A DNA stretch of 64,000 nucleotides from Glycocaulis alkaliphilus (GTDB lineage Bacteria; Pseudomonadota; Alphaproteobacteria; Caulobacterales; Maricaulaceae), in NCBI RefSeq assembly GCF_004000605.1, contig NZ_CP018911.1, positions 1,550,001-1,614,000 of the forward strand. The letters are read 5' to 3'. Position numbers and translations under genes: made by a program. A model generated the notes under the pieces. That model was not told the DNA's origin. It worked only from the letters and a program-made list of their open reading frames with translations, and did not search any database. Below, piece by piece: positions 28,065-52,196 of the stretch (positions are counted from its first letter, which is position 1; each line of letters starts with the position of its first letter).

Positions 28065-29795
28065 TTAAGCGGCTAAACGATGCGCGTCGGAGGGGTGGCC
28101 GAGTGGTTTAAGGCACCGGTCTTGAAAACCGGCGTGCGGGAAACCGTACCGTGGGTTCGAATCCCACCCCCTCCGCCATTTCGGTATAAAACTGGGCACG
28201 CCGTTCGCCGCCGATTCTGCGCTATTTGCGGCGGCTAGGGTTCTCAGAAGCTCGTTCTTCGATCCCATGATGCGCACTTCGCGCTCGTCGACCTCGACGC
28301 GCTGAGCTAACGCGCGCAGATGATCGCGCCGATAGCCGCCGCCCTCCAACCGCATTTTCTCGCGGGCCGCTGCGGCGAATCTCTCGATCATTTCCGGCGT
28401 GACGGCCTGATGAGTGGCGCTGTCGAGCATGGCTTCGGCGCGTTCCGCGTCGGTTTTCGCCTGATCACGAAGGACTTTCAGACCGGCGATGCGCTCTTTC
28501 AGCGCCGGATCGTCGAGGTCGGCGACGCCGATCTCGATGGCGTCGTAAAGGCGTTTCAGCCGCAGCTCCGATTCCGTTGCCCGCCGGTTCAGTTCGGCGA
28601 TGTGCTCACGGCGGCGCTCAGCGCGCTCTTGCCGTCGGTCGAGCACATCGACGAGAACCTCTTCCAGCCGATCAGACGTCAGCAGACGCTCCTCCAGATG
28701 CTGAGCAACCAGCGTATCGAGCTTATCCATCGGGATTGTCCGGCCCTTGCAGCCAGTCTCGCCCTGACGCGCCTTGATCGAGCAGGCGTAGTAGCGGTAA
28801 CGCCCGCTCTTGCCAGTGCGGATGGTCATGGCGCCGCCGCACTTGCCGCAAAAGCAGATCCCCGTCAGCAAGGTTGGTCCTGTCACTACGCGTGGCGGCG
28901 CGACCTTGGGATTGCGCGCCTGCATCAGCTTCTGCACGGCGTCGAAGGTCTTGCGGTCTATGATCGGCGGAACCGGAACCGTCACCAGGTCTTCCGGCTT
29001 GGTCGGCTCCTTGTTCTTGCGATGCTTGCCCCATTGATGCTCGCCGATATAGGTCCGCCGGGTCAGGATGCGATGAACCTGTCCGATGCCCCAGCGGCCG
29101 CCGTCTCGCGTGAAGATGCCCCTGCCATTGAGATGCGTGGCGATCGCTTTGACGCCCATGGCCCCGCGCGTTCCGTCCCCTTCCAGGGCGAGGCGATAGA
29201 TCAGCCGGATCGTGTCGGCGTGCAGCGGATCGATCTCCAGTTTCTTCTTGGTCTTGGCGCCGCGCTGTTCGGCCGCGACCACGCGATAGCCGACGGGCGG
29301 GCGCGAGCCGTTCCAGAAGCCCTGGCGGGCGTTTTCCTTGAGCGCGCGCAGGACGTGCTTGGCGTTCTCCTTGGACTGATATTCATCGAACAGCGCCATG
29401 ATCTGGCGCATCATGACGTGCATGGGATCGTCGCCCATCTCCTGGGTGATGGAGACGAGCTTGACGCCGTTCTTGGCGAGCTTCCGGACGTAGAACTCCA
29501 GCTCGAAATGGTCGCGGAAGAAACGGCTGAATGAGTGGACGACCACGATGTCGAAGGCTGAGGGCTTGGACGTACCCGCCTCGATCATGCGCTGGAATTC
29601 GGGGCGCTTGTCGTTCGTTGCTGACGCTCCTGGCTCCACATAGGTCTCGACGAGTTCGTAGCCGCGCGCCTCGCACCACGCTTCGCCCTGGCGTTTCTGG
29701 TCAGGGATCGAGACGTCATGCTCGGCCTGCCGCGTCGTCGAGACGCGCAGGTAAAGCGCGGCGCGGAGCTTCACGGCGTTTTGCGGTGCGTTCAT
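28065..29795 (-). CDS. large serine recombinase (resolvase/DUF4368-type) integrase
   Basis: 576 residues from the ATG at 29795, which overlaps the tumA stop as ATGA. Resolvase domain: LYLRVSTTRQAEHDVSIPDQ (catalytic Ser in RVST), VHSFSRFFRD and MRQIMALFDEYQSKENAKH. A recombinase domain (GYRVV, GRWGIGQVHRILTRRTYIGE), a zinc-ribbon stretch (GICFCGKCGGAMTIRTGKSGRYRYYAC) and a coiled coil follow. It should integrate and excise the element at tRNA-Ser. Oddly, the last 30-odd residues (RRGWDSNPRYGF and after) are the antisense of the tRNA gene, so the C-terminus depends on the integration site. Confidence 0.93.
   Translation of the reverse strand: MNAPQNAVKLRAALYLRVSTTRQAEHDVSIPDQKRQGEAWCEARGYELVETYVEPGASATNDKRPEFQRMIEAGTSKPSAFDIVVVHSFSRFFRDHFELEFYVRKLAKNGVKLVSITQEMGDDPMHVMMRQIMALFDEYQSKENAKHVLRALKENARQGFWNGSRPPVGYRVVAAEQRGAKTKKKLEIDPLHADTIRLIYRLALEGDGTRGAMGVKAIATHLNGRGIFTRDGGRWGIGQVHRILTRRTYIGEHQWGKHRKNKEPTKPEDLVTVPVPPIIDRKTFDAVQKLMQARNPKVAPPRVVTGPTLLTGICFCGKCGGAMTIRTGKSGRYRYYACSIKARQGETGCKGRTIPMDKLDTLVAQHLEERLLTSDRLEEVLVDVLDRRQERAERRREHIAELNRRATESELRLKRLYDAIEIGVADLDDPALKERIAGLKVLRDQAKTDAERAEAMLDSATHQAVTPEMIERFAAAAREKMRLEGGGYRRDHLRALAQRVEVDEREVRIMGSKNELLRTLAAANSAESAANGVPSFIPKWRRGWDSNPRYGFPHAGFQDRCLKPLGHPSDAHRLAA
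28089..28178 (+). tRNA. tRNA-Ser (anticodon UGA), ICE insertion target
   Basis: Acceptor stem GGAGGGG (28089-28095) pairs with CCCCTCC (28168-28174), followed by G and an encoded CCA (28176-28178). The anticodon loop CTTGAAA in GGTCTTGAAAACCGG gives UGA. A long variable arm lies between it and the T-arm GTGGG-TTCGAAT-CCCAC (28151-28167), as in serine tRNAs. The recombinase gene at 28065-29795 runs antisense through the whole tRNA, so the element is inserted directly at its 3' end. Confidence 0.97.
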
Positions 29796-30184
29796 GATGC
29801 GCCTCCCGCTGCCTTTCGCCATTCCTCGCCGGTCAACGTCAGATCAAGCGAAACACGGTCGTAGAGGACTCGCGGACGCCGCCGGCGCCCTTCCGGTTCC
29901 ATCTCGACCAAACCGTATTCGGCCATCTTCTTCAGCGTTCGCGACAAGTTCGATTTGGCGCGCCCAGTCATCTCCGCCAACTCGTCAAGCGAAGCCGGTG
30001 CGCGTTCGGCGATGGTCCGCAACAGTTCGCGATTACCGGCTGACAGCACCTGGGCAAAGGACTCGGTCGATGTGAACCATACCTTCGGATCGTCCGGCCC
30101 CGGCTTTTGCTCGCCGCGGGCGATCCGCATGGTGCGGGCCTTCATCTCCTCATAATCGGCGATGCCGATCTTCAACGTCGTCAT
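29792..30184 (-). CDS. TumA-like antitoxin / HVO_A0114-type winged-helix DNA-binding protein
   Basis: 130 residues with the winged-helix block LLRTIAERAPASLDELAEMTGRAKSNLSRTLKKMAEYGLVEM and a C-terminal wing (RVLYDRVSLDLTL). It matches the HVO_A0114 DNA-binding group that is paired with TumE-family toxins. It overlaps tumE (4 nt, upstream) and the recombinase gene (ATGA, downstream), so antitoxin and integrase are translationally coupled. It probably neutralises TumE and represses the shared operon; that role comes from the family. Confidence 0.82.
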   Translation of the reverse strand: MTTLKIGIADYEEMKARTMRIARGEQKPGPDDPKVWFTSTESFAQVLSAGNRELLRTIAERAPASLDELAEMTGRAKSNLSRTLKKMAEYGLVEMEPEGRRRRPRVLYDRVSLDLTLTGEEWRKAAGGAS

Positions 30185-38309: not shown

Positions 38310-38537
38310 TCATGCCTCTCGGCTTTTCCGCTGATCGTCCAAGAGTTCGGCCGGTTTGACGTCAAGTGCCTCGGCCACGTGCCAGAGGGTGATGATAGTG
38401 ACGTTCTGCTGCCCGCGTTCCATCGCGCTTATATGAGCGCGGTCAACGCCCATCCTATCCGCCAGAGCGGCCTGGCTGAGGCCGGCTTTTTCCCTAAAAT
38501 ACTGAAGGTTCGCGCCAAATACTTCCCGAATATCCAT
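38310..38537 (-). CDS. XRE-family repressor, QseC-like
   Basis: 75 residues, essentially one HTH_3 domain: FGANLQYFREKAGLSQAALADRMGVDRAHISAMERGQQNVTIITLWHVAEALDVKP. Size, divergent pairing with a DUF2285 gene and location in an ICEMlSymR7A-like backbone match QseC, which represses itself or its divergent anti-activator gene qseM. Palindromic elements lie just upstream at 38545-38588. The homology to QseC proper is inferred from context and size; any small XRE repressor could look like this. Confidence 0.8.
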   Translation of the reverse strand: MDIREVFGANLQYFREKAGLSQAALADRMGVDRAHISAMERGQQNVTIITLWHVAEALDVKPAELLDDQRKSREA

Positions 38538-38707: not shown

Positions 38708-38983
38708 ATGCCCTCGAGACAGCACAGGATCGCCGACGCGCCACCGAACGATGCGGCTGTGACGGTCTATGATCGCAATCACCTGAAGCTCTATATGCGC
38801 CTGCTCGATGCAAGTGAGGCCGGTGCAACGCTTGAAGATGTGGCGTCGCTCTTGCTCGGTATCGACGCCAACAAGGAGCCGGAACGTGCGCGCCAGGTCC
38901 ACGACAGTCATCTATCCCGCGCTCGTTGGATGACCGAACAAGGCTACCGAGATCTTCTCAAGAATGGTCTTCCCGCAGGTTGA
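38708..38983 (+). CDS. DUF2285 protein, QseM-like anti-activator
   Basis: 91 residues, single DUF2285 domain: LKLYMRLLDASEAGATLEDVASLLLG, then ARQVHDSHLSRARWMTEQGYRDLLK. In ICEMlSymR7A, the small DUF2285 protein QseM is divergent from qseC and binds and inhibits TraR and the excision activator FseA. The next gene here carries a homologous C-terminal domain (GYRNLLK). The ribosome context AGGATTTCGC before the ATG is the same as at the fseA-like gene. The anti-activator role is inferred from synteny. Confidence 0.8.
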   Translation: MPSRQHRIADAPPNDAAVTVYDRNHLKLYMRLLDASEAGATLEDVASLLLGIDANKEPERARQVHDSHLSRARWMTEQGYRDLLKNGLPAG

Positions 38984-39112: not shown

Positions 39113-39827
39113 ATGCCGTCAGATTGGCGCGACGACAAGCAGTATGATCACTTCGATGATCTCGGTGTCTCCGGGCTCGCTTGGGAATGCCTTCGTCGGA
39201 ACTCGCGCTATCGTGATGACTACGAGCTAATGCGGGAGGGCGGCGGCGCTCCAGCAGACTGGGGGTTACGATTTCGCTGTAAACCCACAGCTCAACGCAC
39301 TCAGCGCTCCGATTTTCTGGCTTCCAACCGCAGCACCCGCCGTCGTTCAACTGATCGATGCTCTTCCGGACGTGGGCTTGACCTCTGCCAATCCAGCCGC
39401 GCGCATCGCATATCAGAAGATCGACGACGACGGGATTTCTTGGGTTCGGCTTAAAAACGGCGTTAATCTCGTTGGTAATTTGCTCAGTGATCGCCCCGTT
39501 GGCCTGCTACTTCCGCTAGATGACGACTGGGCAGTTCGGCTAGCCGCCGCTGATCGCCTATATCACCAACTTGTGGAGCGCGACCTGCATCCGCCTATCA
39601 CGCGACAGCGACGCGAACGCCTGAAACGAGCCCTGCGAACAATCGACGGCCGCCAGCGCGGGGCCAGTTATCGCGCCGTCGCCACAGTCTTTTTTGGAGC
39701 CGCCCGCGTGTCCGCTGAGCCATGGAAGACCAGTTCGCTAAAGGCTCAAATCGCCCGCCTTGCTGCCTACGGACGAATGATGATCGATCATGGGTACAGG
39801 AATTTGCTGAAAGGGCAATCTCGGTAG
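39113..39827 (+). CDS. FseA-like excision activator, split by a +1 frameshift (DUF6499 + DUF2285)
   Basis: Two frames make one protein. Frame 1 (39113 on) gives DUF6499: MPSDWRDDKQYDHFDDLGVSGLAWECLRRN to ADWGLRF, then loses meaning and stops at 39454. The +1 frame, open from 39231, continues the family: NPQLNALSAPIFWLP, VGLLLPLDDDWAVRLAAADRLYHQLV, then DUF2285 (RALRTIDGRQRGASYRAVATVFFG, HGYRNLLK) to 39827. The switch lies near TTT-C at 39272-39275. In ICEMlSymR7A, msi172-msi171 are joined by programmed +1 ribosomal frameshifting to make FseA. Here it could be the same, or an inactivating mutation or sequencing error. Confidence 0.82.
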
Positions 39828-40088
39828 GGGCAGGAAAATTGATCAGTAAATATGCTTCTCACGTCCATAATGCGCGCCTACTGGGCGATCTTATTACCGT
39901 GTCCTACACCTTAAGATTTCTAACACCAAACGATACCTCTTCACACTCCGTTCTCATGCCCCCCAAAGGGGAGTGACGTTTTCGCCGCGCGCTGATCGTC
40001 ATCCCTCCCGGCGCGCATCTTACGCTTTTCTCGTCTCCGACAGTCCCGCGCTTCCCGAAGCGGGATGGCCTAACCGGAGACGCGACCC
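39828..40088. promoter_or_regulatory. leader of rdfS-like gene with SD-sequestering stem
   Basis: From 39828 to about 40031 I see only a short CACTCC...GGAGTG / CCCC-GGGG hairpin near 39943-39976. At 40032-40082 an 8-bp repeat CGTCTCCG (40032-40039) / CGGAGACG (40075-40082) encloses a second stem (TCCCGC / GCGGGA at 40044-40065). It covers the GGAG ribosome site of the HTH gene at 40089. It may hold down translation of the excisionase-like gene. Confidence 0.55.
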
Positions 40089-40373
40089 ATGCCCGATCCC
40101 AATGCCGGACTTCCCCCACGCTATTTGAGAACGCCGGAAGCGGCCCATTTTCTCGGCCTTTCGGGGCGGACGCTCGAAAAACACCGGACCTATGGCACGG
40201 GGCCACGCTACTCGAAGATCGGCGGGCGCGTCGTCTACGCGATCGAGGATCTGCAAGCCTGGGTCAGCCGGGGAGAGAAGAACTCGACCTCGGACGACAC
40301 GGGCGACGAGGTGTTGCCCGCCAAGCGGCATGCAGCGATCTCGCCCGCCTATGCACGGAAGGCCCGCTCATGA
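40089..40373 (+). CDS. small helix-turn-helix protein, RdfS-like recombination directionality factor
   Basis: 94 residues with a MerR/AlpA-type HTH: YLRTPEAAHFLGLSGRTLEKHRTYGTGPRYSKIGGRVVYAIEDLQAWV. In ICEMlSymR7A the homologous small HTH gene rdfS encodes the excisionase and sits upstream of traF and the relaxase rlxS; here it leads DUF2840-traF-...-relaxase in the same way. It overlaps the DUF2840 gene (ATGA at 40370-40373). The excisionase role is inferred. If true, it would work with a serine recombinase, unlike RdfS with the tyrosine recombinase IntS. Confidence 0.78.
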   Translation: MPDPNAGLPPRYLRTPEAAHFLGLSGRTLEKHRTYGTGPRYSKIGGRVVYAIEDLQAWVSRGEKNSTSDDTGDEVLPAKRHAAISPAYARKARS

Positions 40374-40876
40374 GCGGCGGGGCCACTGTCGAACTCGTCT
40401 GGATCGAGAAGCAGATCGAGCACTGGATTCGCTTCGGCCGGATCGTGCGGACAACGATCCAGAGCCGCAGTGGCAGCACCGTCGCTTTCGATCCCGGCGC
40501 CGTCTTCGCCTTCGTCCGCTGGCAGGCGAACGACTTCGGGACTACGGAAAGCCGGATCGACATCCTGCGTGCGCCCCGACCGGGTGAGTCCTATGCGACC
40601 GTGCCGCAGGTGACACCCGGCGGCGATAGCCTGCTGCGCCAGTCCGGCTGGCTCAAGGTCGAACGGGTTCTTCAGTTCGCCGATGCGATCGAAGCGCTCG
40701 GCATCGACCCGGCCGACGCCGCGCCGGACTATTGGCGCCACGTTCACAACAGGCTGTCAGCAGGCCTGGAGCCGCGAGGCTACACAGCCGCTCAACATCG
40801 CGCCTGGCTCCTGCGCCAAGCCTGTCCACCCGATCCACTGACATTGCGAGCCGCGTCGGCGGGGAGCGTGTCATGA
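40370..40876 (+). CDS. DUF2840 ICE protein
   Basis: 168 residues: TVELVWIEKQIEHWIRFGR, FVRWQANDFGTTESRIDILRA, VTPGGDSLLRQSGWLKVERVLQ and the late WRHVHNRLSAGLEPRGYTAAQHRAWLLRQ, matching the DUF2840 family found between rdfS-like and traF genes of ICEs. Function is unknown. It is coupled to both neighbours by ATGA overlaps. Confidence 0.88.
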   Translation: MSGGATVELVWIEKQIEHWIRFGRIVRTTIQSRSGSTVAFDPGAVFAFVRWQANDFGTTESRIDILRAPRPGESYATVPQVTPGGDSLLRQSGWLKVERVLQFADAIEALGIDPADAAPDYWRHVHNRLSAGLEPRGYTAAQHRAWLLRQACPPDPLTLRAASAGSVS

Positions 40877-41451
40877 CCCGGTTCGGATACGTCATGACGA
40901 CCTATTTCTCGGTGCTCGCGATCGGCGGACTGGCCTTCGTTCATGTGAGCCCCAAGCTGATCTGGAACGCGTCCGCAAGCGCGCCCATCGGGCTATACGC
41001 CGTTGCGTCGGACGACGATCTTGCCGTAGGCGATCTGGTCGTCGTCGATCCGCCGGAATCGCTTGCGACCTATCTCGCCGAGCGCGGCTATCTGCCCGAG
41101 GGCGTACCGCTCCTCAAGCACGTCGCTGCGCTTCCCGGACAACGTGTCTGCCGCGATGGCGCCGCTGTCGCTGTCGACGACATCCCCCTGGCGCAGGCCC
41201 AGCCGAGCGACCGCTTCGGACGCGACCTGCCCGTTTGGCAGGGCTGCCACTTCGTCGCCAAGACGGAACTCTTCCTCCTGAATCCAAGCCATCCCGACAG
41301 TCTCGACGGTCGCTATTTCGGCGCACTCCCGGCAGACGCCGTGATCGGGCGCGCCGTTCCGATCCTCACCGATGAAGACGGCGACGGCCACTATGTCTGG
41401 CGCGCCGATCACGACGCCGACGCTCTCGAAAATTCTTCCGACCGCAAATGA
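40873..41451 (+). CDS. traF: TraF-type S26 signal peptidase
   Basis: 192 residues from the ATG at 40873. A membrane anchor (FGYVMTTYFSVLAIGGLAFVHV) is followed by a serine in NASASAPIGLY and a lysine in LLKHVAALPGQRVC, the S/K dyad of the signal-peptidase I/TraF fold, then NPSHPDSLDGRYFGALP. TraF of RP4 processes TrbC pilin into its cyclic form. Here it probably matures the trbC product at 48121. Confidence 0.9.
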   Translation: MTRFGYVMTTYFSVLAIGGLAFVHVSPKLIWNASASAPIGLYAVASDDDLAVGDLVVVDPPESLATYLAERGYLPEGVPLLKHVAALPGQRVCRDGAAVAVDDIPLAQAQPSDRFGRDLPVWQGCHFVAKTELFLLNPSHPDSLDGRYFGALPADAVIGRAVPILTDEDGDGHYVWRADHDADALENSSDRK

Positions 41452-41464
41452 AAGGAACTGCCCC

Positions 41465-41812
41465 ATGGCTCAGATCGGTCAATTCACCCGCACAGAAACC
41501 GGCTTCACCGGACGCCTTCACACGCTCATTCTCTACCGAGAACTCACCCTCGTCCCGGCAACATCGTCGGACAGCGAAAACGCGCCCGACTATCGCATCC
41601 ATCACGGCGATCACGACGGACCGGAGATCGGCGCCGGCTGGAAACGCACCGGCGAGAAGGCTGGTGAATACATCTCTTTGCAGATCGACGACCCGACCTT
41701 CGCATTTCCGATCCGCGCCAATCTCTTCAAGACCGACGCCGAGGACGGACATTGGGCGCTCTATTGGAACCGCCCCGCAAAGCGCCCCGAGAAACGCGAT
41801 GAGCGCGGCTAG
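41465..41812 (+). CDS. DUF736 family ICE protein (copy 2)
   Basis: 115 residues, paralogue of the gene at 37935: MAQIGQFTRTETGFTGRLHTL, APDYRIHHGDHDGPEIGAGWKR, EYISLQIDDPTFAFPIRANLF, WALYWNRP. It overlaps the following transglycosylase gene by 14 nt if that gene starts at 41799. Function unknown. Confidence 0.9.
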   Translation: MAQIGQFTRTETGFTGRLHTLILYRELTLVPATSSDSENAPDYRIHHGDHDGPEIGAGWKRTGEKAGEYISLQIDDPTFAFPIRANLFKTDAEDGHWALYWNRPAKRPEKRDERG

Positions 41813-42518
41813 ACCGTCTCGGCGCTGCGCTATTATGGCGAAGTTCCTCCTCTGCGGTCTGCTCTCCGGCGTGGTTGTCTCTCACGCCGTATCAGCAGAG
41901 ACCGCGTCCTCCAGGACGGAACAAGGCGGCAATTCCTATGCTGCCTATATCGCCGAAGCTGCGCAGCGCTTCGGCTTCCCGGCGCGTTGGATCCTCGCTG
42001 TCATGCGCAGGGAAAGCGCCGGCGACGTGCGCGCCGTCAGCGAAAAAGGCGCGATGGGGCTGATGCAGATCATGCCCGATACCTGGGATGAGCTGCGCGC
42101 GCGTTACGGTCTGGGGCGCGACCCGTTCGATCCTCGCGACAACATTCTGGCGGGCGCCGCTTATCTCCGTGAACTGCATGACCGCTTCGGATCGCCGGGC
42201 TTCCTCGCCGCCTACAATGCGGGACCGACACGCTATGCCGAGCATCTAGCTACAGGCCGACCGTTGCCCCGAGAAACCCGCGATTATGTTGCGGCGTTGG
42301 CGCCGCTCCTCGGCGCGTCGGTTGCAGCAGAACGGCGAGAACCGAGCGCAATTCTGACCGTGGACTGGCGCGCGGCGCCGCTCTTTTCCGCTCGTACCGA
42401 CCGACAAACGCCTGCTGATGAAACGCATCTGAGCAGTGGCGCAGGCACTTTTCCTTCACACACATCCGGCGCATCGGACGGTCTGTTCCCGCCAACTGGA
42501 AACGGGGATCGGCGATGA
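41799..42518 (+). CDS. conjugal-transfer lytic transglycosylase
   Basis: 239 residues from the ATG at 41799 (ATG at 41835 is the alternative). A basic head and signal peptide (MAKFLLCGLLSGVVVSHAVS) are followed by an SLT domain: Glu in LAVMRRESAGD, GAMGLMQIMPDTW, NILAGAAYLRELHDRFG and AYNAGPTRYAEHL. VirB1-like enzymes open peptidoglycan for the type IV secretion channel. The C-terminal 80 residues are low complexity. Confidence 0.9.
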   Translation: MSAARPSRRCAIMAKFLLCGLLSGVVVSHAVSAETASSRTEQGGNSYAAYIAEAAQRFGFPARWILAVMRRESAGDVRAVSEKGAMGLMQIMPDTWDELRARYGLGRDPFDPRDNILAGAAYLRELHDRFGSPGFLAAYNAGPTRYAEHLATGRPLPRETRDYVAALAPLLGASVAAERREPSAILTVDWRAAPLFSARTDRQTPADETHLSSGAGTFPSHTSGASDGLFPPTGNGDRR

Positions 42519-42765
42519 TCCCGCTGATCGCACTCTCGCGCGGTCCGTCGCGCGATGGCGTGTTTCCGGGAGGGAGGACGGGGACGGAAGGCGCAACAAC
42601 AACGGGAGGGCGAGATAAAAGGCGCGGCACGGATACGCGCTATGTCGTTGTTGTTGTTGGGTATTTCGCCCGCTGCGGTCATGGGCACAGTGCCGCCCCA
42701 CGGCTCAACCCACTGTTTTTATGCGGGTTTCACCGTGCCGCGCGCTTTCAAGCGGGCGCTTTGTC
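42519..42765 (+). other. candidate oriT region upstream of relaxase gene
   Basis: Non-coding stretch with nested inverted repeats: CAACAACAACG (42594-42604) / CGTTGTTGTTG (42646-42656) and GCGCGGCACGG (42622-42632) / CCGTGCCGCGC (42733-42743), both perfect. It lies immediately upstream of a VirD2/RlxS-type relaxase gene, as oriT often does. I cannot point to the nic site. Confidence 0.55.
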
Positions 42766-44523
42766 ATGAGCGACCGCGATAATGACATGCGCATCCGGCC
42801 CGGCCGCATCCGCAACAAGGGGACAAGCGCCCGGAAGGCGCAAAGCTTTGTCGGCCAGGTAATGGGCGCCGCCCGCAAGGCCGGACACACCGGATACAAG
42901 CTGAACGGTTCGAAAGGACGCGGGCGCGGATCGCAATTCGGCCGGGGCCGTTTCGCCGGCGCAGCGCGCGGACTGTCACGCACCCAGCGGCGCGTCGTCA
43001 TCAAAGCGCGCGTCGTCCGTCATCGTGGCGCACGTTTCCGTTCCGCCCCGCTCGCCAAACACATCGCCTATCTGAAGCGTGAAGGCGTGACCCGTGACGG
43101 GCGTGATGCGGGCATGTTCAACGCCGAAGCAGACAGCGTCGATGATCGCGCTTTCGCAGAGCGATGCGAAGAGGACCGGCATCATTTCCGCTTCATCGTC
43201 TCGCCTGAAGACGCCGACCGCCTCGAAGACCTGCGCGCCTACACACGCGACCTGATGAGCCAGGCCGAGCGCGATCTCGGCACGAAGCTTGACTGGATCG
43301 GCGTCGATCATTGGAACACCGACAATCCGCACATCCATGTTCTCGTGCGGGGCCGAGCCGATAACGGCAAGGACCTCGTCATCGCCCGCGACTATATCAG
43401 CCGAGGGTTCCGCAGCCGCGCCGAGCAACTGGTCGAACTGGAGCTCGGGCCGCGCGCCGAGCAGGAGATCGCATCCGAACTTCAGGCGGAGGTGAAAGCC
43501 GAACGCTGGACGGGTCTTGACCGCGCGCTCCAGGGGCTCGCCGATGACGGTGCCGGGGTTGCTGATCTGCGTCCCGGCTCCCCGGAACCGCGCGATCCGG
43601 AGCTGCGCAAACTCCTTATTGGTCGCGCCCAGACGCTGGAAGGGCTCGGCCTCGCCGACAGGCTCGCCCCGGCGGTTTGGTCTCTGAAACCGGGCGCACA
43701 GGAAACGCTGCGCGATCTCGCCGAGCGTGGCGACATCATCAAGACCATGCACCGCGCCATGTCCGGCGGACCAGGGCGCGCACAAACGGACTTCGCGATT
43801 GAGGACACACCGACTGCCCCAGTACTTGGACGGTTGGTCGAGCGCGGGCTGCATGACGAGTTGCGCGGCGAGGCCTATGCCGTGATCGACGCCGTGGACG
43901 GCAGCGTCCATCATCTGCGCTTCAACGATCTCGACGCCACGGGCGACACGCCCGAAGGCGGGATTGTCGAGACGCGGGTCTGGCGCTCGGACAATGGCGG
44001 CCGTCAGCGCATGGCCCTTGTCGGCCGCTCCGACCTCAACCTCGAAACCCAAATCGGCGCGAGTGGTGCGACCTGGCTCGATCGGCTGCAACTCGCCAAG
44101 ACCCAGGCGCCGCTCAGCATGGGCGGCTTCGGCGCCGAAGTTCGCGAAGCGCTCGACCGGCGCGCCGATCATCTCGTCGCCGAGGGGCTCGCGACCAGAA
44201 ATGGTCGGCGCGTCACCTTCGCCCGCGACCTCCTGAAGACGCTGCGCGAACGAGAGCTCGACGCTGCGGCGGCGCGTGTCGAAACCGAGACAGGCTTGCT
44301 TCGCAGAAATTCTGCAGAAGGCGATCGCATCTCGGGAACCTATCGCCGGCGTCTCGATCTCGCCTCAGGCCGTTTCGCCATGGTCGATAGCGGCCTCGGC
44401 TTCGAACTCGTCCCGTGGAAACCCCAGCTCGAACGCCATCTCGGCCAGACCGTGACGGGAACGATGACGCCGGGTGGTGGGATCGACTGGAGCCTCGGCC
44501 GCAAGCGCGGGCTTGGCATCTGA
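42766..44523 (+). CDS. VirD2/RlxS-type relaxase with DUF3363 domain
   Basis: 585 residues from the ATG at 42766. A very basic N-terminal 60 residues leads to the relaxase core: HIAYLKREGVTRDGRDA, HHFRFIVSPEDADRL, LDWIGVDHWNTDNPHIHVLVRG (HxH metal site near residue 188), followed by a DUF3363 domain. It should nick oriT and lead the transferred strand. RlxS of ICEMlSymR7A belongs to the same kind. It is followed by traG after 23 nt. Confidence 0.92.
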   Translation: MSDRDNDMRIRPGRIRNKGTSARKAQSFVGQVMGAARKAGHTGYKLNGSKGRGRGSQFGRGRFAGAARGLSRTQRRVVIKARVVRHRGARFRSAPLAKHIAYLKREGVTRDGRDAGMFNAEADSVDDRAFAERCEEDRHHFRFIVSPEDADRLEDLRAYTRDLMSQAERDLGTKLDWIGVDHWNTDNPHIHVLVRGRADNGKDLVIARDYISRGFRSRAEQLVELELGPRAEQEIASELQAEVKAERWTGLDRALQGLADDGAGVADLRPGSPEPRDPELRKLLIGRAQTLEGLGLADRLAPAVWSLKPGAQETLRDLAERGDIIKTMHRAMSGGPGRAQTDFAIEDTPTAPVLGRLVERGLHDELRGEAYAVIDAVDGSVHHLRFNDLDATGDTPEGGIVETRVWRSDNGGRQRMALVGRSDLNLETQIGASGATWLDRLQLAKTQAPLSMGGFGAEVREALDRRADHLVAEGLATRNGRRVTFARDLLKTLRERELDAAAARVETETGLLRRNSAEGDRISGTYRRRLDLASGRFAMVDSGLGFELVPWKPQLERHLGQTVTGTMTPGGGIDWSLGRKRGLGI

Positions 44524-44546
44524 GCATCACCCCGGAAGGAAAAGAC

Positions 44547-46556
44547 ATGCCGATCAAGACACAGCCAACACAGGCCACCAAAATCCTCTGGGGCCAGATC
44601 ATCATCGTCTCGCTCGTTGTGGTCGGTTTCATCTGGACCGCAACACAGTGGACCGCATGGCGGCTCGGCTTTCAGCCTCAGCTCGGCGCGCCGACGACGG
44701 ACATTCTCGGATGGCCGATCTATCCGCCCTGGAGCTTCTTCGTCTGGTGGTATTTCTACGACGCCTATGCGCCGCGTGTGTTCGTCGAAGGCGCGATCAT
44801 TGCCGGCAGCGGCGGGATCGCCGCGATCGGTGTCGCGATTTTCCTCTCCGTCCTCCGGGCTCGCGAGGCGCGCGACGTAACCACCTACGGCTCAGCCCGA
44901 TGGGCGGAGCGGAAGGACGTTGAATCGTCCGGGTTGCTTGCCGCGGACGGCGTCGTGCTTGGCCGCTTCGAGAACCACTACCTCCGGCATGACGGCCCGG
45001 AGCATGTGCTCTGCTTCGCGCCAACCCGCTCGGGCAAGGGCGTCGGCCTCGTCGTCCCGAGTCTCCTGACCTGGCCGGGCTCGGCCATCGTCCATGACAT
45101 CAAGGGAGAGAATTGGCTGCTCACCGCCGGGTGGCGGGCGCGGTTCACCCGCACCATCCTGTTCGATCCGACCGACGCGAAGAGCGCGGCCTACAATCCA
45201 CTGCTCGAAGTCCGGCGCGGCGACAGCGAAGTACGCGACGTCCAGAACGTCGCCGACATCCTCGTCGATCCGGAAGGTCTGCTCGAACGCCGGAACCATT
45301 GGGAGAAGACTAGCCATTCGCTGCTCGTCGGCGCGATCCTCCATGTCCTCTACGCCGAGGCGGACAAGACGCTCGCCGGCGTCGCCGCCTTCCTCTCTGA
45401 TCCGGGCCGGCCGATCGAGGCGACGCTCGCGGCGATGATGCGCACACCGCATCTTGGCGACCGGCCGCATCCGGTCGTGGCGCAGGTGGCGCGCGAACTC
45501 CTCAACAAGTCGGAAAACGAACGCTCCGGTGTTCTGTCTACGGCGATGAGTTTTCTGGGCCTCTATCGCGATCCCGTCGTCGCCAGGGTCACGAGCCGCT
45601 GCGACTGGCGGATCAAGGATCTGGTCTCTGGCGCGCGGCCGACCACGCTCTATCTCGTCGTGCCGCCCTCCGACATCAGCCGCACAAAGCCGCTCGTCCG
45701 GCTTGTGCTGAACCAGATCGGACGTAGGCTGACAGAAGAGTTGAACGCCAATCGCAAGCGCCATCGCCTGTTGCTGATGCTCGACGAATTTCCGGCGCTC
45801 GGGCGGCTCGACTTCTTCGAAAGCCAGCTCGCGTTCATGGCGGGCTATGGATTGAAGGCCTTCCTCATCGCGCAGTCCCTCAATCAGATCGAGAAAGCCT
45901 ATGGCCAGAACAACGCCATCCTCGACAACTGCCATGTCCGGGTGAGCTTCGCGACCAATGACGAACGTACTGCCAAGCGCGTGTCCGATGCCCTCGGCAC
46001 GGCGACCGAGATGCGGGCAATGAAGAACTATGCCGGGCACAGATTGTCGCCCTGGCTTGGCCATCTCATGGTCTCCCGGCAGGAGACCGCGCGGCCTTTG
46101 CTGACTCCCGGCGAGATCATGCAATTACCGCCGGATGATGAAATCGTGCTCGTCTCCGGCGCGCCGCCGGTCCGGGGCAAAAAGGCGCGCTACTATACCG
46201 ACCCACAGCTCAAGACACGCATCCTGTCACCGCCCAAACTGATGGCCGAACCGACCGTATCGAAAGAGTTGCAGGCAGATGATTGGAGTGACCGCGCACC
46301 CGTCGCCGCGCCAAAGCCAAGGAAGAGGGCCTCCAGCGATGCGGGCGAAGATGCAGACGGCGGCATTCGCCGTGAGCCGGAACTGCCCGAGCATGAAGAC
46401 ATCGCGCCGGAGCCGGCACCATCTGCGCGAGAAGAGTTCGCGGGTCTCGATGATGAAACGGATGATGACGCTCAGCGGGCTCGCCAGATGCAGGGCCGAT
46501 TCCGCAGCATCGCCCGGCAGGCCTCGCTTGATCCCGATGACGGCATCGAACTTTGA
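44547..46556 (+). CDS. traG: TraG/VirD4-type coupling protein ATPase
   Basis: 669 residues from the ATG at 44547. N-terminal membrane segments (ILWGQIIIVSLVVVGFIW and IIAGSGGIAAIGVAIFLSVL). Walker A CFAPTRSGKGVGLVVPSLL (about residue 160), Walker B LLLMLDEFPALGRL (about 410), then FLIAQSLNQIEKAYG and HVRVSFATNDERTAKRVSDALG. It couples the relaxosome to the trb secretion channel. The C-terminal 80 residues are acidic and disordered. Confidence 0.95.
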   Translation: MPIKTQPTQATKILWGQIIIVSLVVVGFIWTATQWTAWRLGFQPQLGAPTTDILGWPIYPPWSFFVWWYFYDAYAPRVFVEGAIIAGSGGIAAIGVAIFLSVLRAREARDVTTYGSARWAERKDVESSGLLAADGVVLGRFENHYLRHDGPEHVLCFAPTRSGKGVGLVVPSLLTWPGSAIVHDIKGENWLLTAGWRARFTRTILFDPTDAKSAAYNPLLEVRRGDSEVRDVQNVADILVDPEGLLERRNHWEKTSHSLLVGAILHVLYAEADKTLAGVAAFLSDPGRPIEATLAAMMRTPHLGDRPHPVVAQVARELLNKSENERSGVLSTAMSFLGLYRDPVVARVTSRCDWRIKDLVSGARPTTLYLVVPPSDISRTKPLVRLVLNQIGRRLTEELNANRKRHRLLLMLDEFPALGRLDFFESQLAFMAGYGLKAFLIAQSLNQIEKAYGQNNAILDNCHVRVSFATNDERTAKRVSDALGTATEMRAMKNYAGHRLSPWLGHLMVSRQETARPLLTPGEIMQLPPDDEIVLVSGAPPVRGKKARYYTDPQLKTRILSPPKLMAEPTVSKELQADDWSDRAPVAAPKPRKRASSDAGEDADGGIRREPELPEHEDIAPEPAPSAREEFAGLDDETDDDAQRARQMQGRFRSIARQASLDPDDGIEL

Positions 46557-47140: not shown

Positions 47141-48124
47141 ATGACCGTCCATACATTCAAATCCGAAGCGCTCGCCCGTGGCGCGCGCATGCTCAGAACC
47201 GCTCTGGGGGCCGACGTCGCCGCATGGCTCGAAGACCCTGCGGTTGTCGAGGTGATGCTCAATCCGGATGGCCGCCTCTGGGTCGACCGCCTGAGCGAAG
47301 GCCTCGCCGACACCGGCGAAGAGCTTTCCGTCGCTGACGGCGAACGCATCGTCCGTCTGGTTGCGCACCATGTCGGCGCAGAGGTTCATGCTGGCGCTCC
47401 GCGTGTGTCCGCGGAGCTGCCGGGAACAAGGGAGCGGTTCGAGGGGCTTCTGCCGCCTGTGGTCGCCGCCCCGGTCTTCGCGATCCGCAAGCCGGCCGTC
47501 GCGGTCTTCACACTCGAAGACTATGTCCGCGCCGAGATCATGCCAGACGATGCGGCGGCGGCATTGTGCGACGCCATCACATCCCGCGCCAACATCCTTG
47601 TCGCTGGCGGCACCTCGACCGGCAAGACCACGCTCACCAATGCATTGCTGGCGGAAGTCGCCAAATCCTCCGACCGCGTCGTTCTGATCGAGGACACACG
47701 CGAGCTCCAATGCCTGACGCCGAACCTTGTCGCTCTGCGGACCAAGGATGGCGTCGCGTCGCTTTCCGATCTCGTTCGCTCCTCGCTGCGCCTGCGGCCT
47801 GACCGCATCCCCATCGGCGAGGTGCGCGGGGCTGAGGCGCTCGATCTCCTCAAAGCCTGGGGCACCGGCCATCCCGGCGGCATCGGCACCATCCATGCCG
47901 GTTCAGCGCTCGGCGCGCTGCGCCGCCTCGAACAGCTCATCCAGGAAGCCGTCATCACCGTGCCCCGCGCGATGATCGCCGAGACAATCGACCTGATCGC
48001 CGTCCTCTCGGGGCGCGGATCGGCGCGCCGACTTTCCGAACTCGCCCGCGTCGAGGGCCTCGATGCGACCGGGGACTACCAGATCCAACCGCTTCTTCAC
48101 CCCAGGACAGGAGACCATCCATGA
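47141..48124 (+). CDS. trbB: P-type conjugative transfer ATPase TrbB (VirB11-like)
   Basis: 327 residues. VirB11 layout: [22 protein letters not shown], Walker [19 protein letters not shown] (about residue 155), Asp-box [13 protein letters not shown], and the His box [26 protein letters not shown]. Cytoplasmic traffic ATPase that powers mating-pair formation. The stop overlaps trbC in ATGA form. Confidence 0.95.
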
Positions 48125-48450
48125 CCAAAACCACAATTCTCTATCCGCGCTGGCCGCTTTACGCGACGGCGCTCGCGTTCAGCCTTTTGCTCGTCGCGCC
48201 CGCCCATGCGGCGGGCTCGGGCATGCCCTGGGAGGCGCCGCTCCAGTCAATCCTGGAATCCATTGAAGGGCCGGTCGCCAAGATCGTCGCGGTGATCATC
48301 ATCATCGTCACAGGACTGACGCTCGCCTTCGGCGACACCTCCGGCGGTTTTCGCCGCCTCGTGCAGATCGTCTTCGGCCTCTCCATCGCCTTCGCGGCGT
48401 CGAGCTTCTTCCTGTCATTCTTCTCGTTCGGCGGCGGAGCGCTGATCTGA
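48121..48450 (+). CDS. trbC: TrbC/VirB2 pilin
   Basis: 109 residues: signal peptide ending in APAHA, then MPWEAPLQSILESIEGPVAKIVAVIIIIVTGLTLAF and a second hydrophobic helix (GLSIAFAASSFFLSFFSF). This is the TrbC/VirB2 prepilin layout. TraF (40873) would be its processing peptidase. Overlaps trbB (ATGA) and trbD (TGATG). Confidence 0.93.
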   Translation: MTKTTILYPRWPLYATALAFSLLLVAPAHAAGSGMPWEAPLQSILESIEGPVAKIVAVIIIIVTGLTLAFGDTSGGFRRLVQIVFGLSIAFAASSFFLSFFSFGGGALI

Positions 48451-48719
48451 TGCGCGAGCTGGCCGACATTCCGGGCTTTTACGCGCCCGTCCACCGCGCC
48501 CTGGTCGAACCGATCCTGCTCGGCGGCGCGCCCCGCACGGTCGCCATCGCCAACGGCACGCTCGCAGCAGCCGTCGGACTTGGCCTTAGGCTCTGGGTGG
48601 TCGGGATCGCACTCTGGCTTGTCGGCCATCTCCTCGCGGTCTGGGCCGCAAAACGTGATGCCCAGATCGTCGATGTTGCGCGCCGGCATCTTCGTTTCCC
48701 AACCTGGTTCGGAGTCTGA
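48450..48719 (+). CDS. trbD: TrbD/VirB3 mating-channel protein
   Basis: 89 residues: PGFYAPVHRALVEPILLGGAPRTVAIANG, then hydrophobic GLGLRLWVVGIALWLVGHLLAVW and a short tail (VARRHLRFP), as in VirB3/TrbD. An inner-membrane component next to the VirB4-type ATPase. The start overlaps the trbC stop. Confidence 0.93.
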   Translation: MRELADIPGFYAPVHRALVEPILLGGAPRTVAIANGTLAAAVGLGLRLWVVGIALWLVGHLLAVWAAKRDAQIVDVARRHLRFPTWFGV

Positions 48720-48722
48720 GCG

Positions 48723-51182
48723 ATGATGCGCCTCGCCGAATATCGCTCGACCGCCTCGCTATTGGCAGATTTTCTTCCGTGGGCGGCGCTCGTCGCGGAG
48801 GGCGTCATCCTCAACAAGGATGGCAGTCTGCAACGCACCGCACGGTTTCGGGGGCCTGACCTCGACTCCGCGACACCGTCAGAACTCGTCGCCGTGTCCA
48901 GCCGGCTCAACAACGCCCTTCGCCGGCTCGGATCGGGCTGGGCGGTGTTCGTCGAAGCGCAGCGGGCGCCGGCGCGCGACTATCCGCTCTCACATTTTCC
49001 CGATGCCGTTTCCGCCCTCGTGGACGCGGAACGACGCGCCCAGTTTGAAGATGCGTCCAGACATTTCGAAAGCAGCTACTTCCTGACTTTCGTCTGGATG
49101 CCGCCGCTCGACGATACGAGCCGCGCGGGACGATGGCTCTATGAGGACGCGCCCGACAGCAGCCTCAACCCGCGAGAGCATGTCGAGAGTTTTATGGCGC
49201 GAACGGATCGCCTGCTCGATCTCCTCGACGGCTTCATGCCGGAGGCCGCCTGGCTCTCAGACGAAGAGACACTGACCTTTCTGCATTCGACCGTGTCGAC
49301 GCGTCGTCAACGCCTGCGCTTGCCCGAAACGCCGATGCATCTCGATGCGCTCCTGGCCGATAGCGCGCTTGTCGGCGGGTTGGCGCCGAGTTTGGGCGGG
49401 GCGCATCTGCGCAGCCTCTCCATCATCGGATTCCCCACGGCCACATGGCCGGGACTGCTGGATGAGCTCAATAGCCAACCCTTCGAATATCGCTGGGTCA
49501 CGCGCGCTATCTGCCTCGACAAGACCGACGCGACCAAACTGCTGACGCGCATCCGCCGGCAATGGTTCGCCAAGCGCAAATCCATCGCCGCGATCCTGAA
49601 AGAGGTGATGACCAATGAGGCGTCGACGCTGCTCGATAGCGACGCGGCGAACAAGGCCGCCGACGCCGATGAAGCCTTGCAAGAGCTCGGCGCCGACATA
49701 GCGGGCGCCGCCTACATCACCGCTACGCTGACCGTCTGGGATGAGGACGAAGCCGTCGCGGACGCCAAGCTAAAGGCGGCGGAAAAAGTCATTCAGGGTC
49801 GTGACTTCACCTGCATGCCCGAGACTTTGAACGCCATCGAGGCGTGGCTCGGCTCGTTGCCCGGCCATCTCTACGCCAATGTCCGTCAACCGCCGGTCTC
49901 CACGCTCAATCTCGTCCACATGATCCCGATATCGGCAGTCTGGGCAGGACCGGCGCGCAATGATCATCTGGACGGACCTCCACTCTTTTACGCGGAGACG
50001 GAAGGCTCGACTCCGTTCCGCTTTTCACCCCATGTCGGCGATGTCGGGCACACGCTGGTCGTCGGTCCGACCGGGTCGGGCAAATCCGTGTTGCTGGCGT
50101 TGATGGCGCTGCAATTTCGTCGCTATGCGGGCGCGCAGATCTTCGCCTTCGACTTCGGCGGCTCGATCCGCTGTGCGACCGTCGCCTGTGGTGGCGACTG
50201 GCAGGATCTCGCCGGCGCGCTTTCGGATGACGAAGCCGCCGTCCAGCTTCAGCCGCTGCGCAACATCGACGATATCGGCGAACGCGCCTGGGCGCAGGAC
50301 TGGCTGTCCGGCCTGATCGCGCGAGAAGGCGTCACCATCGATCCGGTCGCGCGGGATCATCTCTGGTCGGCGCTGACCTCGCTCGCCTCGGCGCCTGTCG
50401 CAGAACGAACGCTCACGGGGCTATCCGTCCTGTTGCAGTCGACCGAACTCAAACAGGCGCTCACGCCATTCTGTCTTGGCGGCCCCTTCGGGCGTTTGCT
50501 CGACGCCGAAACAGAAGAACTCGGAACAGCCGATTTCCAGGCCTTCGAGACCGAAGGGCTGATCGGATCGGCCGCGACGCCGGCCGTGCTCGCCTATCTG
50601 TTCCACCGGATCGAGGATCGCCTCGATGGACGTCCGAGCCTCATCATCGTCGATGAAGGCTGGCTCGCGCTCGATGACGGGACATTTGGCGGCCAGCTCC
50701 GCGAATGGCTTAAGACTCTAAGGAAGAAGAACGCCTCCGTCCTCTTCGCCACGCAATCGCTCGCCGACATCGACAATTCCGCGATTGCGCCCGCCATCAT
50801 CGAGAGCTGTCCAACGCGCATCTTCCTGCCGAACGAGCGTGCCTTCGAGCCGCAGATCGCCGACATCTACCGCCGCTTCGGCCTCAATGAACGCCAGATC
50901 GAGATCGTCGCGCGGGCCATGCCGAAGCGGGACTATTACTGCCAGTCGCGCCGCGGCAATCGGCTCTTCTCGCTCGGTCTCGGCGAGGTCGCGCTCGCCT
51001 TCACGGCCGCATCGTCGAAGACCGATCACGCCGCCATCACCGACATCCTCTCCGAACACGGACGAGACGGCTTCGCCGCAGCCTGGCTCGCCCGTCGCGG
51101 TCTCGATTGGGCCGTCGAACTGCTCGGCCAAACACCTGATCCGATCCCATCCCCTCAAACCACGGAGACTACTCATGCGTAA
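48723..51182 (+). CDS. trbE: TrbE/VirB4 conjugal transfer ATPase
   Basis: 819 residues. N-terminal CagE/TrbE domain, Walker A VVGPTGSGKSVLLALMALQF (about residue 447), Walker B LIIVDEGWLALDD, then LRKKNASVLFATQSLADIDNSAIAPAIIESCPTRIFLP split over a conserved region, and ARAMPKRDYYCQSRRG. The largest ATPase of the channel. It overlaps trbJ by 8 nt. Confidence 0.95.
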   Translation: MMRLAEYRSTASLLADFLPWAALVAEGVILNKDGSLQRTARFRGPDLDSATPSELVAVSSRLNNALRRLGSGWAVFVEAQRAPARDYPLSHFPDAVSALVDAERRAQFEDASRHFESSYFLTFVWMPPLDDTSRAGRWLYEDAPDSSLNPREHVESFMARTDRLLDLLDGFMPEAAWLSDEETLTFLHSTVSTRRQRLRLPETPMHLDALLADSALVGGLAPSLGGAHLRSLSIIGFPTATWPGLLDELNSQPFEYRWVTRAICLDKTDATKLLTRIRRQWFAKRKSIAAILKEVMTNEASTLLDSDAANKAADADEALQELGADIAGAAYITATLTVWDEDEAVADAKLKAAEKVIQGRDFTCMPETLNAIEAWLGSLPGHLYANVRQPPVSTLNLVHMIPISAVWAGPARNDHLDGPPLFYAETEGSTPFRFSPHVGDVGHTLVVGPTGSGKSVLLALMALQFRRYAGAQIFAFDFGGSIRCATVACGGDWQDLAGALSDDEAAVQLQPLRNIDDIGERAWAQDWLSGLIAREGVTIDPVARDHLWSALTSLASAPVAERTLTGLSVLLQSTELKQALTPFCLGGPFGRLLDAETEELGTADFQAFETEGLIGSAATPAVLAYLFHRIEDRLDGRPSLIIVDEGWLALDDGTFGGQLREWLKTLRKKNASVLFATQSLADIDNSAIAPAIIESCPTRIFLPNERAFEPQIADIYRRFGLNERQIEIVARAMPKRDYYCQSRRGNRLFSLGLGEVALAFTAASSKTDHAAITDILSEHGRDGFAAAWLARRGLDWAVELLGQTPDPIPSPQTTETTHA

Positions 51183-51915
51183 GAAACTCGCCGCCCTCAT
51201 GCTGACCGGAGCCATCGCTTTGGCGCCGATGCAACCGGCCTATGCGCTATTCGGCGTCGGCGACGTCGTCATCGATCCGACCAACCTCGCGCAAAATATT
51301 CTCACCGCCGCACGCACCCTCGAAATGATCAACAATCAGATCACGCAGCTTCAGAACGAGGCGCAGATGTTGATCAACCAGGGACGCAACCTCGCAAACC
51401 TGCCGCACTCATCGCTGGCGCGTCTGCGGTCGATCATGCAGCAGACGGAAGATCTGCTGGGCGAAGCGCAGCGCGTTGGATACGTCGTCTCCGAAATCGA
51501 ACGCGTCTTCTCAGAACAATATGGAGACGCCGCAGCAACCGGCGATTTCGCCGCCATGAACGCCAATGCCGAGGCGCGCTGGCGGACCTCGGTTGCAGGC
51601 TATGAAGACGCGTTGAAGGTCCAGGCCGGCGTCGTCGGCAATATTGAAGCGACGCGCACGGAATTGAGCACTCTCGTCTCGCAAAGCCAGGGTGCGGTCG
51701 GCACCTTGCAGGCGGCGCAGGCCGGCAATCAACTTCTCGCCCTGCAAAGCCAGCAGATGACGGACCTAACCGCCGCCATCACCGCGCAGAACCGCGCGGA
51801 CGCGCTGGACGCGGCTCGGCGCGCGTCCGCTAAAGCGCAGGGGCGCGAGAACCTCAATCGCTTCCTCGACTACGGGACCGGCTACACGCCAACCGCCGTC
51901 AGCATGTTCCGGTAA
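51175..51915 (+). CDS. trbJ: TrbJ (VirB5-like) conjugal transfer protein
   Basis: 246 residues from the ATG at 51175. Signal peptide (LAALMLTGAIALAPMQPAYA), then FGVGDVVIDPTNLAQNILTAARTLEMINNQITQL and a long coiled helical body typical of TrbJ/VirB5. The C-terminus FLDYGTGYTPTAVSMF is conserved in the family. A minor pilus or periplasmic component. Confidence 0.93.
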   Translation: MRKKLAALMLTGAIALAPMQPAYALFGVGDVVIDPTNLAQNILTAARTLEMINNQITQLQNEAQMLINQGRNLANLPHSSLARLRSIMQQTEDLLGEAQRVGYVVSEIERVFSEQYGDAAATGDFAAMNANAEARWRTSVAGYEDALKVQAGVVGNIEATRTELSTLVSQSQGAVGTLQAAQAGNQLLALQSQQMTDLTAAITAQNRADALDAARRASAKAQGRENLNRFLDYGTGYTPTAVSMFR

Positions 51916-51920
51916 TACCC

Positions 51921-52193
51921 GTGCGCAATTCTCCCGACCAAATCATCAGGCCCGTCGCCATCGCCTTGGGCGGGCTCGCTGCGCTCTTCGCCGCGGTTGA
52001 GCTGGCGAATACGGTCACTCCGGAAACGCCATCGGTTCCTCCCGTGACCAACAATCCTTTGCAGGCGGAACTTTCTCGCTGCCGAACGGTGACGCCGGAA
52101 GAGCTGGAAATCGACACGATGTGTCGCGCCGCCTGGGCAGAGCAACGCCGCCGATTTCTCGGGCTTCCCGGCGACGATCCCGAGAAGGAGTAG
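51921..52193 (+). CDS. TrbK-alt entry-exclusion-type protein
   Basis: 90 residues with a GTG start at 51921. One membrane helix (VAIALGGLAALFAAVELA) and a two-Cys pattern (LSRCRTVTPEELEIDTMCRAAWAEQRRRF) typical of the TrbK-alt family between trbJ and trbL. It is thought to block redundant transfer into cells that already carry the element. Confidence 0.88.
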   Translation: MRNSPDQIIRPVAIALGGLAALFAAVELANTVTPETPSVPPVTNNPLQAELSRCRTVTPEELEIDTMCRAAWAEQRRRFLGLPGDDPEKE

Positions 52194-52196
52194 GAT

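Follow-up and report, generated by a model that had tools for sequence, protein, structure and literature searches.

Background

The slip site of FseA was reportedly defined in a 2015 PNAS paper. FseA is encoded by msi172 and msi171 of ICEMlSymR7A in Mesorhizobium japonicum R7A, and its two halves are joined by +1 frameshifting (PMC10359603). Jowsey et al. 2023 give 4709 FseA homologues, about 61% with a conserved +1 site, and describe a UGGGGG beside this site that they suggest may stall translation for QseM binding (PMC10359603). Mesorhizobium elements have the gene order rdfS-traF-msi107-rlxS (PMC5882170, PMC11963761), and the RdfS protein of R7A works with the tyrosine-type integrase IntS (PMC11963761). 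A further relative, RovC of Yersinia, is described as a type VI secretion activator (PMC10359603).

FseA-type +1 frameshifting has thus already been published as widespread, so the locus reported here adds to a known class. It lies in Glycocaulis alkaliphilus, in a stretch of 64,000 nucleotides (contig NZ_CP018911.1, positions 1,550,001 to 1,614,000) that we call the window. Two of its open reading frames very probably form one gene for an FseA-type transcription activator, whose full-length product would arise only via +1 programmed ribosomal frameshifting.

Results

A probable single gene in two reading frames

The frame-0 ORF (39113-39454, 113 aa) matches PF20109 (DUF6499, E 8.6e-16) in Pfam, and the +1 frame, which is open from 39231 and has its stop at 39825-39827, matches PF10074 (DUF2285, E 2.3e-29). 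These matches bear out the initial annotation, which had described two intact halves of an FseA-like protein in different frames; its limits for the overlap, 39231 for the +1 frame and 39454 for frame 0, were confirmed. The precedent that it named, msi172/msi171, was also well chosen, being of the same family with the same shift (PMC10359603).

When the TTTC at 39272-39275 is taken as one Phe step, the two frames yield a stop-free joined protein of 237 aa (P0001) with the junction sequence ...PADWGLRF-AVNPQLNALSAPIFW... The codons of the proposed signal encode W, G, L, R and F, and past the slip the predicted product goes F-A-V-N-P in the +1 frame. The first standard start codon of that frame in the window is a GTG at 39372, 32 codons past the slip.

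P0001 is alignable over its full length with 13 joined relatives. The junction residues W50, G51, L52 and F54 are invariant in all 14 proteins, as are D178 and W204 in the DUF2285 domain. In our reading, the latter two correspond to D210 and W235 of FseA; they were equated by position, with FseA itself outside the alignment. The AWEFLRRN-like motif by which the family is recognized is present in the DUF6499 domain as AWECLRRN (residues 23-30, 39179-39202). Cys here replaces Phe, and Cys, Trp and Phe are all seen at this position among the 14 aligned relatives. The Phe in R7A (Phe34) is reported to be used for QseM binding and FseA folding (PMC10359603). The features of the locus and its surroundings are collected in Table 1.

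Table 1 Coordinates of the fseA-like gene, its proposed signals and neighbouring genes within the window
Feature	Position	Strand	Basis
Large serine recombinase, C-terminal codons antisense through the tRNA-Ser gene	28065-29822	-	
tRNA-Ser (TGA)	28089-28178	+	
Divergent Cro/CI-type HTH gene, upstream of the QseM-like gene	38310-38537	-	HTH_3 E 1.2e-15
QseM-like lone DUF2285 protein, 89 aa from ATG 38714, ends 129 bp before fseA	38714-38983	+	7uqt, PF10074
fseA-like gene, frame-0 part, DUF6499 through slip codon TTT	39113-39274	+	PF20109, dN/dS
Proposed +1 signal TGG GGG TTA CGA TTT C	39260-39275	+	Conservation in +1 class, synonymous codon bias
Frame-0 tail for ribosomes that would not slip, no protein-level selection	39275-39454	+	dN/dS
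fseA-like gene, +1 part, middle region and DUF2285	39276-39827	+	PF10074, RovC match, dN/dS
Candidate FseA box TGACGT-N16-TCGTCA	39974-40001	+	Position, conservation; 87 bp before RdfS-like ATG
RdfS-like winged-helix protein	40089-40373	+	PDB 8dgl, HTH_17
DUF2840, S26 peptidase (TraF-like), DUF736, transglycosylase, RlxS-like relaxase, TraG-like coupling protein	40370-46556	+	Profile matches
RlxS-like relaxase	42721-44523	+	NF041267 E 8.3e-169, 563 bits, below model cut-off 850
TraG-like coupling protein	44415-46556	+	
Mating-pore genes: TrbB-like ATPase, TrbE-like, TrbL, CagX (TrbG-like), TrbI	47141-56375	+	

Conservation and selection

When named genomes were scanned for relatives of the joined protein, 11 loci were found, and all 11 have the identical +1 break at the same codon. 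Six are 99.1-99.96% identical to the window across 6.7 kb; their records are named uncultured Hyphomonadaceae, Hyphomonas, Henriciella and Oceanicaulis, and several are metagenome bins. The remaining five have 67-74% identity in the best protein segment.

Substitution rates were calculated for six relatives (L008, L009, L011, L012, L154 and L156). Ahead of the slip, dN/dS in frame 0 is 0.07-0.21, and past the slip it is 0.12-0.17 in the +1 frame. In the overlap past the slip, where both frames are open, dN/dS is 0.13-0.30 in the +1 frame versus 1.56-2.01 in frame 0. Therefore, the frame under purifying selection switches at the slip site, and it does so in all six comparisons. Positions 39276-39371, which lie ahead of the GTG at 39372, also follow the +1 pattern: differences at codon positions 1, 2 and 3 number 27, 20 and 67 across four relatives. 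Selection on the +1 frame thus acts already ahead of the first standard start.

A sequencing or assembly error of a single extra base would be enough to create such a break. However, the identical site occurs in separate assemblies, with 0 differences across the 715 bp of the fseA-like gene for L002 and L007. Given this agreement and the pattern of selection, we rejected an error, to which we assign virtually no probability. An interrupted reading frame is likewise what a one-frame gene would show if it had been broken by an indel and were decaying. The initial annotation had regarded random disruptions in relatives as a sign of error or of a pseudogene; instead, the relatives are broken at the identical codon, and purifying selection acts on both halves. 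The break persists in relatives down to 67% protein identity and, family-wide, in 130 of 174 classified rows (see below). A pseudogene was therefore rejected, as separate genomes keep the break while both halves are selected, and its chance is negligible.

Another possibility is that the DUF2285 half is a separate protein with its own start, which would make a frameshift needless. The GTG at 39372 is an in-frame start, and the homologous genes rihF1b and rihF1a of Azorhizobium caulinodans are described, in the portion of their report that we draw on, as each having a start and a stop of its own, with neither a frameshift nor traR (PMC9601964). Moreover, a possible +1-frame start (ATG, GTG or TTG) precedes the slip in 45 of the 86 +1 genes of the thinned family set described below (ATG in 22), so internal starts could still be used across the family. 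In the window, however, the 32 codons that lead from the slip to the first start are selected in the +1 frame, the overlap has a +1 dN/dS of 0.13-0.30, the selected frame switches at TTT-C, and all 14 aligned joined proteins share the junction residues W, G, L and F. Two separate proteins are therefore very unlikely.

The regulatory stretch containing fseA is more diverged than its flanks when L008-L012 are compared with 36.1-42.8 kb of the window. Identity is about 74-81% in the fseA stretch (below detection in L008) and about 86-97% in the transfer genes and other flanks. This unevenness looks as if regulatory cassettes had been exchanged by recombination.

The proposed slip site across the family

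Genome searches with PF20109 (a count of 1445 genomes, in overlapping groups) together with the joined-protein scan gave 173 loci, 172 of which have a DUF6499 match in a model of our own. Classified by domain frames, the 174 rows comprise 130 with DUF2285 in the +1 frame, 37 with it in the same frame, 1 with it in the +2 frame (L065) and 6 whose second domain is unclassifiable. With L001, a copy of the window, left out of the site counts, there are 129 +1 loci. A TGG-GG anchor occurs in 125 of these and defines 112 distinct 75-nt site windows, that of the locus under study included; 4 +1 loci and 12 one-frame loci lack this anchor and are not counted.

TTT is present in all 112 anchored +1 site windows; counted from TGG, it is the fifth codon in 110 and the sixth in 2. 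The following base is C in 109 windows and T in the other 3. Among 25 one-frame site windows, none has TTT at the fifth codon, where 9 have TTC. At the sixth codon, TTT is present in 4, and in two of these (L166 and L173) the next base is C. An in-frame TTT-C one codon further on is thus found in 2 of the 25 one-frame windows, so the letters alone are no proof of slipping. The initial annotation, which had placed a +1 shift near TTT-C at 39272-39275, is correct as far as sequence goes, both in the switch of selection (6/6) and in the TTT of the anchored windows (112/112).

Some individual loci depart from these patterns. L173 is one-frame and has the in-frame TTT-C plus GGG, whereas L166 is one-frame with TTT-C; both are possible intermediates or could reflect chance. 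L065 (genome G738) has TTTC at the site and DUF2285 in the third frame, perhaps owing to a further indel.

Thinning at 80% identity left 86 +1 genes and 23 anchored one-frame genes. In the counts that follow, related genes are taken as independent. The +1 genes have a strong synonymous bias at the site. Gly is spelled GGG in 66/86 of them, compared with 169/1369 (12%) elsewhere in the same genes and 4/23 in one-frame genes. For Leu, TTA or TTG is used in 53/77 (elsewhere 280/2481, 11%; one-frame 3/22), and for Arg, CGA is used in 48/55 (elsewhere 279/2630, 11%; one-frame 0/5). TTT occurs at the site in 86/86 and elsewhere in 159/579, but TTT was required for entry into the thinned set, so the unfiltered count of 112 windows is the fair one. 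Control positions lack this bias: the LRR motif uses CGA for its two Arg in 14/151 and TTA or TTG for its Leu in 12/76, and a Gly of DUF2285 uses GGG in 7/47. Pairing with the anti-Shine-Dalgarno sequence at the site falls into the gene's top 2% of codon positions in 65 of 86 +1 genes and in 4 of 23 one-frame genes. The family signal can be written GGGGG-UUR-CGA-UUU-C.

Within the +1 class, GGG and CGA are not significantly linked (p 0.13). In the tree's other half, the +1 members keep UUU and have CGA in 0/10 and GGG in 5/10, which speaks against a general need for CGA. The A-site codon is CGC in 39 and CCC in 33 of the 86 genes; this restriction is no independent evidence, since it is largely set by Ala or Pro in the +1 protein. 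In a quick tree of 120 proteins, the two frame states need 7 changes, 3 of which are forced by starred branches. The one-frame pair L159 and L170 is nested in a mainly +1 group, on unstarred branches. L159 retains the peptide WGLRFA, but spells it TGG GGC CTG CGT TTC GCC.

Proposed slip mechanism

The genome has 41 tRNA matches, all of which could be typed. These include one tRNA-Phe gene (GAA) for both UUU and UUC, and tRNA-Arg genes with the anticodons ACG, CCG, CCT and TCT but none with TCG, so CGA can be read only by the ACG tRNA-Arg. This tRNA reads CGA through inosine, in an I-A pair. The GGGGG ends 6 nt ahead of TTT and 3 nt ahead of CGA, and the spacer to CGA is UUR in the window and in the consensus. 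The A-site codon in the window is CGC and not a stop. We also looked for a 3′ RNA stimulator, but folding in the 60 nt past the slip is, if anything, weaker than in the remainder of the gene (mean z +0.77, sd 1.25, n=86).

We propose that the Shine-Dalgarno-like GGGGG holds the ribosome over the site, where CGA would pair weakly with the inosine-containing ACG-anticodon tRNA-Arg. The single tRNA-Phe (GAA) would then shift in the P site from UUU to the better-matched UUC, and translation would continue in the +1 frame. Ribosomes that do not slip would make the DUF6499 protein with a meaningless tail. Re-pairing of the P-site tRNA-Phe from UUU to UUC is the simplest such step, and we infer it on that ground. 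The paper on influenza PA-X anticipated that some UUU_C sites would form a class in which the A- and E-site codons are restricted, and links weaker E-site pairing to more +1 shifting in RF2 (PMC3498833).

The same protein would result if the ribosome slipped a codon earlier: CGA would occupy the P site, its weak pairing would allow UUC rather than UUU to enter the A site, and the Arg tRNA would not re-pair, as in Ty3. The 3-nt spacer (UUR) between GGGGG and CGA, found in the window and in the consensus, equals the distance at which the slippery CTTT of prfB follows its own SD-like GGGGG (PMC12421855). CGA is among the few substitutes for the Ty3 P-site codon (PMC5009743), and it fills 48 of the 55 Arg positions. 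By contrast, the ten +1 members from the tree's other half all keep UUU but have no CGA, the GGG and CGA preferences are not significantly linked (p 0.13), and re-pairing of tRNA-Phe is both simple and the favoured model for the UUU_C of PA-X (PMC3498833). We therefore consider the earlier slip unlikely, though with a chance that deserves weight, and prefer the re-pairing of tRNA-Phe.

A shift of frame would also result if slippage were transcriptional rather than ribosomal. Such slippage usually involves homopolymers of about eight or more (PMC3711429), but at the site only five G and three T form runs. In addition, the signals at the level of codons (CGA, TTR and GGG) suggest translation. 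Transcriptional slippage is thus extremely improbable.

A more specific reading of the ribosomal slip can be offered tentatively, with rather less than even confidence. The site could be a composite +1 site of its own kind, made of a GGGGG that pairs with the anti-Shine-Dalgarno sequence and stands at the prfB distance from a CGA read only by an inosine tRNA, followed by UUU_C, without a stop. Weak pairing of CGA in the P site, or one step later in the E site, would replace the stop codon as the cause of slippage. If this is true, the transfer frequency of the family's conjugative elements would vary with how abundant, or how modified, tRNA-Arg(ICG) is, and the circuit of the element studied here would lack quorum sensing.

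Regulatory neighbours

The QseM-like protein matches QseM (PDB 7uqt, E 1.4e-19) and PF10074 (E 8.6e-10). The Cro/CI-type HTH gene stands in the place of QseC, and its role is suggested by this position. The RdfS-like protein matches RdfS (PDB 8dgl, E 5.1e-10) and heads a traF-rlxS-type operon.

Long-enough flanks were available for 81 +1 loci and 31 one-frame loci. Of these, 54 of the +1 loci and none of the one-frame loci have a QseM-like gene immediately upstream in the same orientation. If the definition is relaxed to a short DUF2285 ORF anywhere in the flanks, the numbers become 61/83 and 7/31. Because there are few independent contrasts between an upstream qseM-like gene and the frameshift (3 on starred branches, 7 in total; sign test p=1), no correlated evolution is claimed. 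Some one-frame loci have a QseM-like ORF on the opposite strand.

The published FseA box consists of two inverted hexamers 16 bp apart (PMC10359603), and the candidate box has the same geometry, which is what we compared, rather than the letters. Its arms match in 5 of 6 pairs, and sequence conservation with relatives starts there. The arms TGACG and CGTCA are exact in L008 and L011, and the left arm is TAACG in L012. The Agrobacterium plasmid pAtK224b has TGACGA-N16-TCGTCA, likewise 87 bp from rdfS. In a 261-nt stretch, 3 repeats of box size with 5 of 6 pairs were seen versus 2.11 expected by chance. With short flanks, TGACG-N16..19-CGTCA occurs in 5 of 87 other +1 loci (1.34 expected), in two of them inside the gene, and in 0 of 34 one-frame loci (0.64 expected). 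Such repeats are thus common by chance, so the evidence for the box is its position and conservation.

If the circuit works as in ICEMlSymR7A, the full-length protein, the rarer product, would attach as a dimer to the candidate box and activate rdfS-traF-rlxS. Transfer, and perhaps excision, would thereby begin in only a small number of cells. Leakage would be prevented by the QseM-like protein, through its binding to the DUF6499 domain.

Transfer genes, recombinase and quorum sensing

The overlap of the serine recombinase with the tRNA-Ser gene suggests that the element sits against this tRNA gene. A search for exact repeats of at least 15 nt shared by the recombinase/tRNA-Ser stretch and the remainder of the window found none, and we therefore do not set the ends of the element. 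No tyrosine integrase was found among the 47 reading frames of the window given to Pfam, a subset of its ORFs, and the only integrase-like protein among these 47 is the serine recombinase. The initial annotation had supposed that a low-frequency slip gates ICE excision. That claim is weakened, because the only such protein found is a serine recombinase, whereas RdfS of R7A partners the tyrosine-type IntS. Gating of transfer-gene expression is better supported than gating of excision.

The TraR quorum-sensing input of the FseA/QseM/RdfS circuit was not found in this genome: there is no TraR-type autoinducer-binding domain (PF03472) in its 3.02 Mb, and the E. coli control was positive. Without TraR, the QseM-like protein would, by analogy, act on the FseA-like protein alone.

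The plasmid pAtK224b (L175) has a closely similar gene order and an identical slip site. In its record, the fseA-like gene between 5858 and 6761 is unannotated, although its neighbours are annotated.

Discussion

The signal GGGGG-UUR-CGA-UUU-C, with its CGA preference and prfB spacing, is possibly less explored than the frameshift itself. The CGA preference and its spacing are absent from Jowsey et al. 2023, as far as the portion of that paper used here extends (PMC10359603), and we claim no priority for them. The text of the GeneTack survey mentions neither DUF2285 nor Mesorhizobium nor the word conjugal. Relative to R7A, the circuit is an apparent variant, in that no TraR was found.

Through this locus, a proven case of translationally gated gene transfer would gain a counterpart in an element that is found nearly unchanged in records named Hyphomonadaceae, Hyphomonas, Henriciella and Oceanicaulis, apparently without a layer of quorum sensing. 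Such genes can escape annotation, as the blank in the pAtK224b record illustrates. Comparing frameshifted with single-frame relatives isolates a likely cis signal, and the mechanism can be tested by codon changes that leave the protein unaltered.

Comparison with known systems

RovC of Yersinia, whose gene is in one frame, resembles the joined protein in sequence (6xz5, E 7.4e-9, best stretch residues 166-232). The locus is most like FseA of R7A, which has its DUF6499 and DUF2285 halves in frames 0 and +1, a UGGGGG beside the site, and the partners QseM, RdfS, TraF and RlxS (PMC10359603, PMC5882170, PMC11963761). The order of the Glycocaulis genes also resembles the Mesorhizobium order rdfS-traF-msi107-rlxS. 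By contrast with R7A, no TraR-type domain was found in this genome, the only integrase-like protein found is a serine recombinase rather than a tyrosine integrase, the qseM-like gene is immediately upstream of fseA, and the frameshift is predicted from sequence.

The rihF1b/rihF1a genes of ICEAc in A. caulinodans are a homologous two-ORF module, also with no traR, but differ in that their authors state no frameshift in the part of the report cited (PMC9601964). Beyond the family, prfB (RF2) shares the SD-like GGGGG upstream of a slippery codon (PMC12421855). The prfB spacing is 3 nt, whereas here the GGGGG lies 6 nt from TTT (3 nt from CGA), and CGC follows rather than a stop. PA-X of influenza shares a UUU followed by C, with one tRNA-Phe re-paired from UUU to UUC (PMC3498833), but it is made by eukaryotic ribosomes, has no SD-like element and has another E-site codon.
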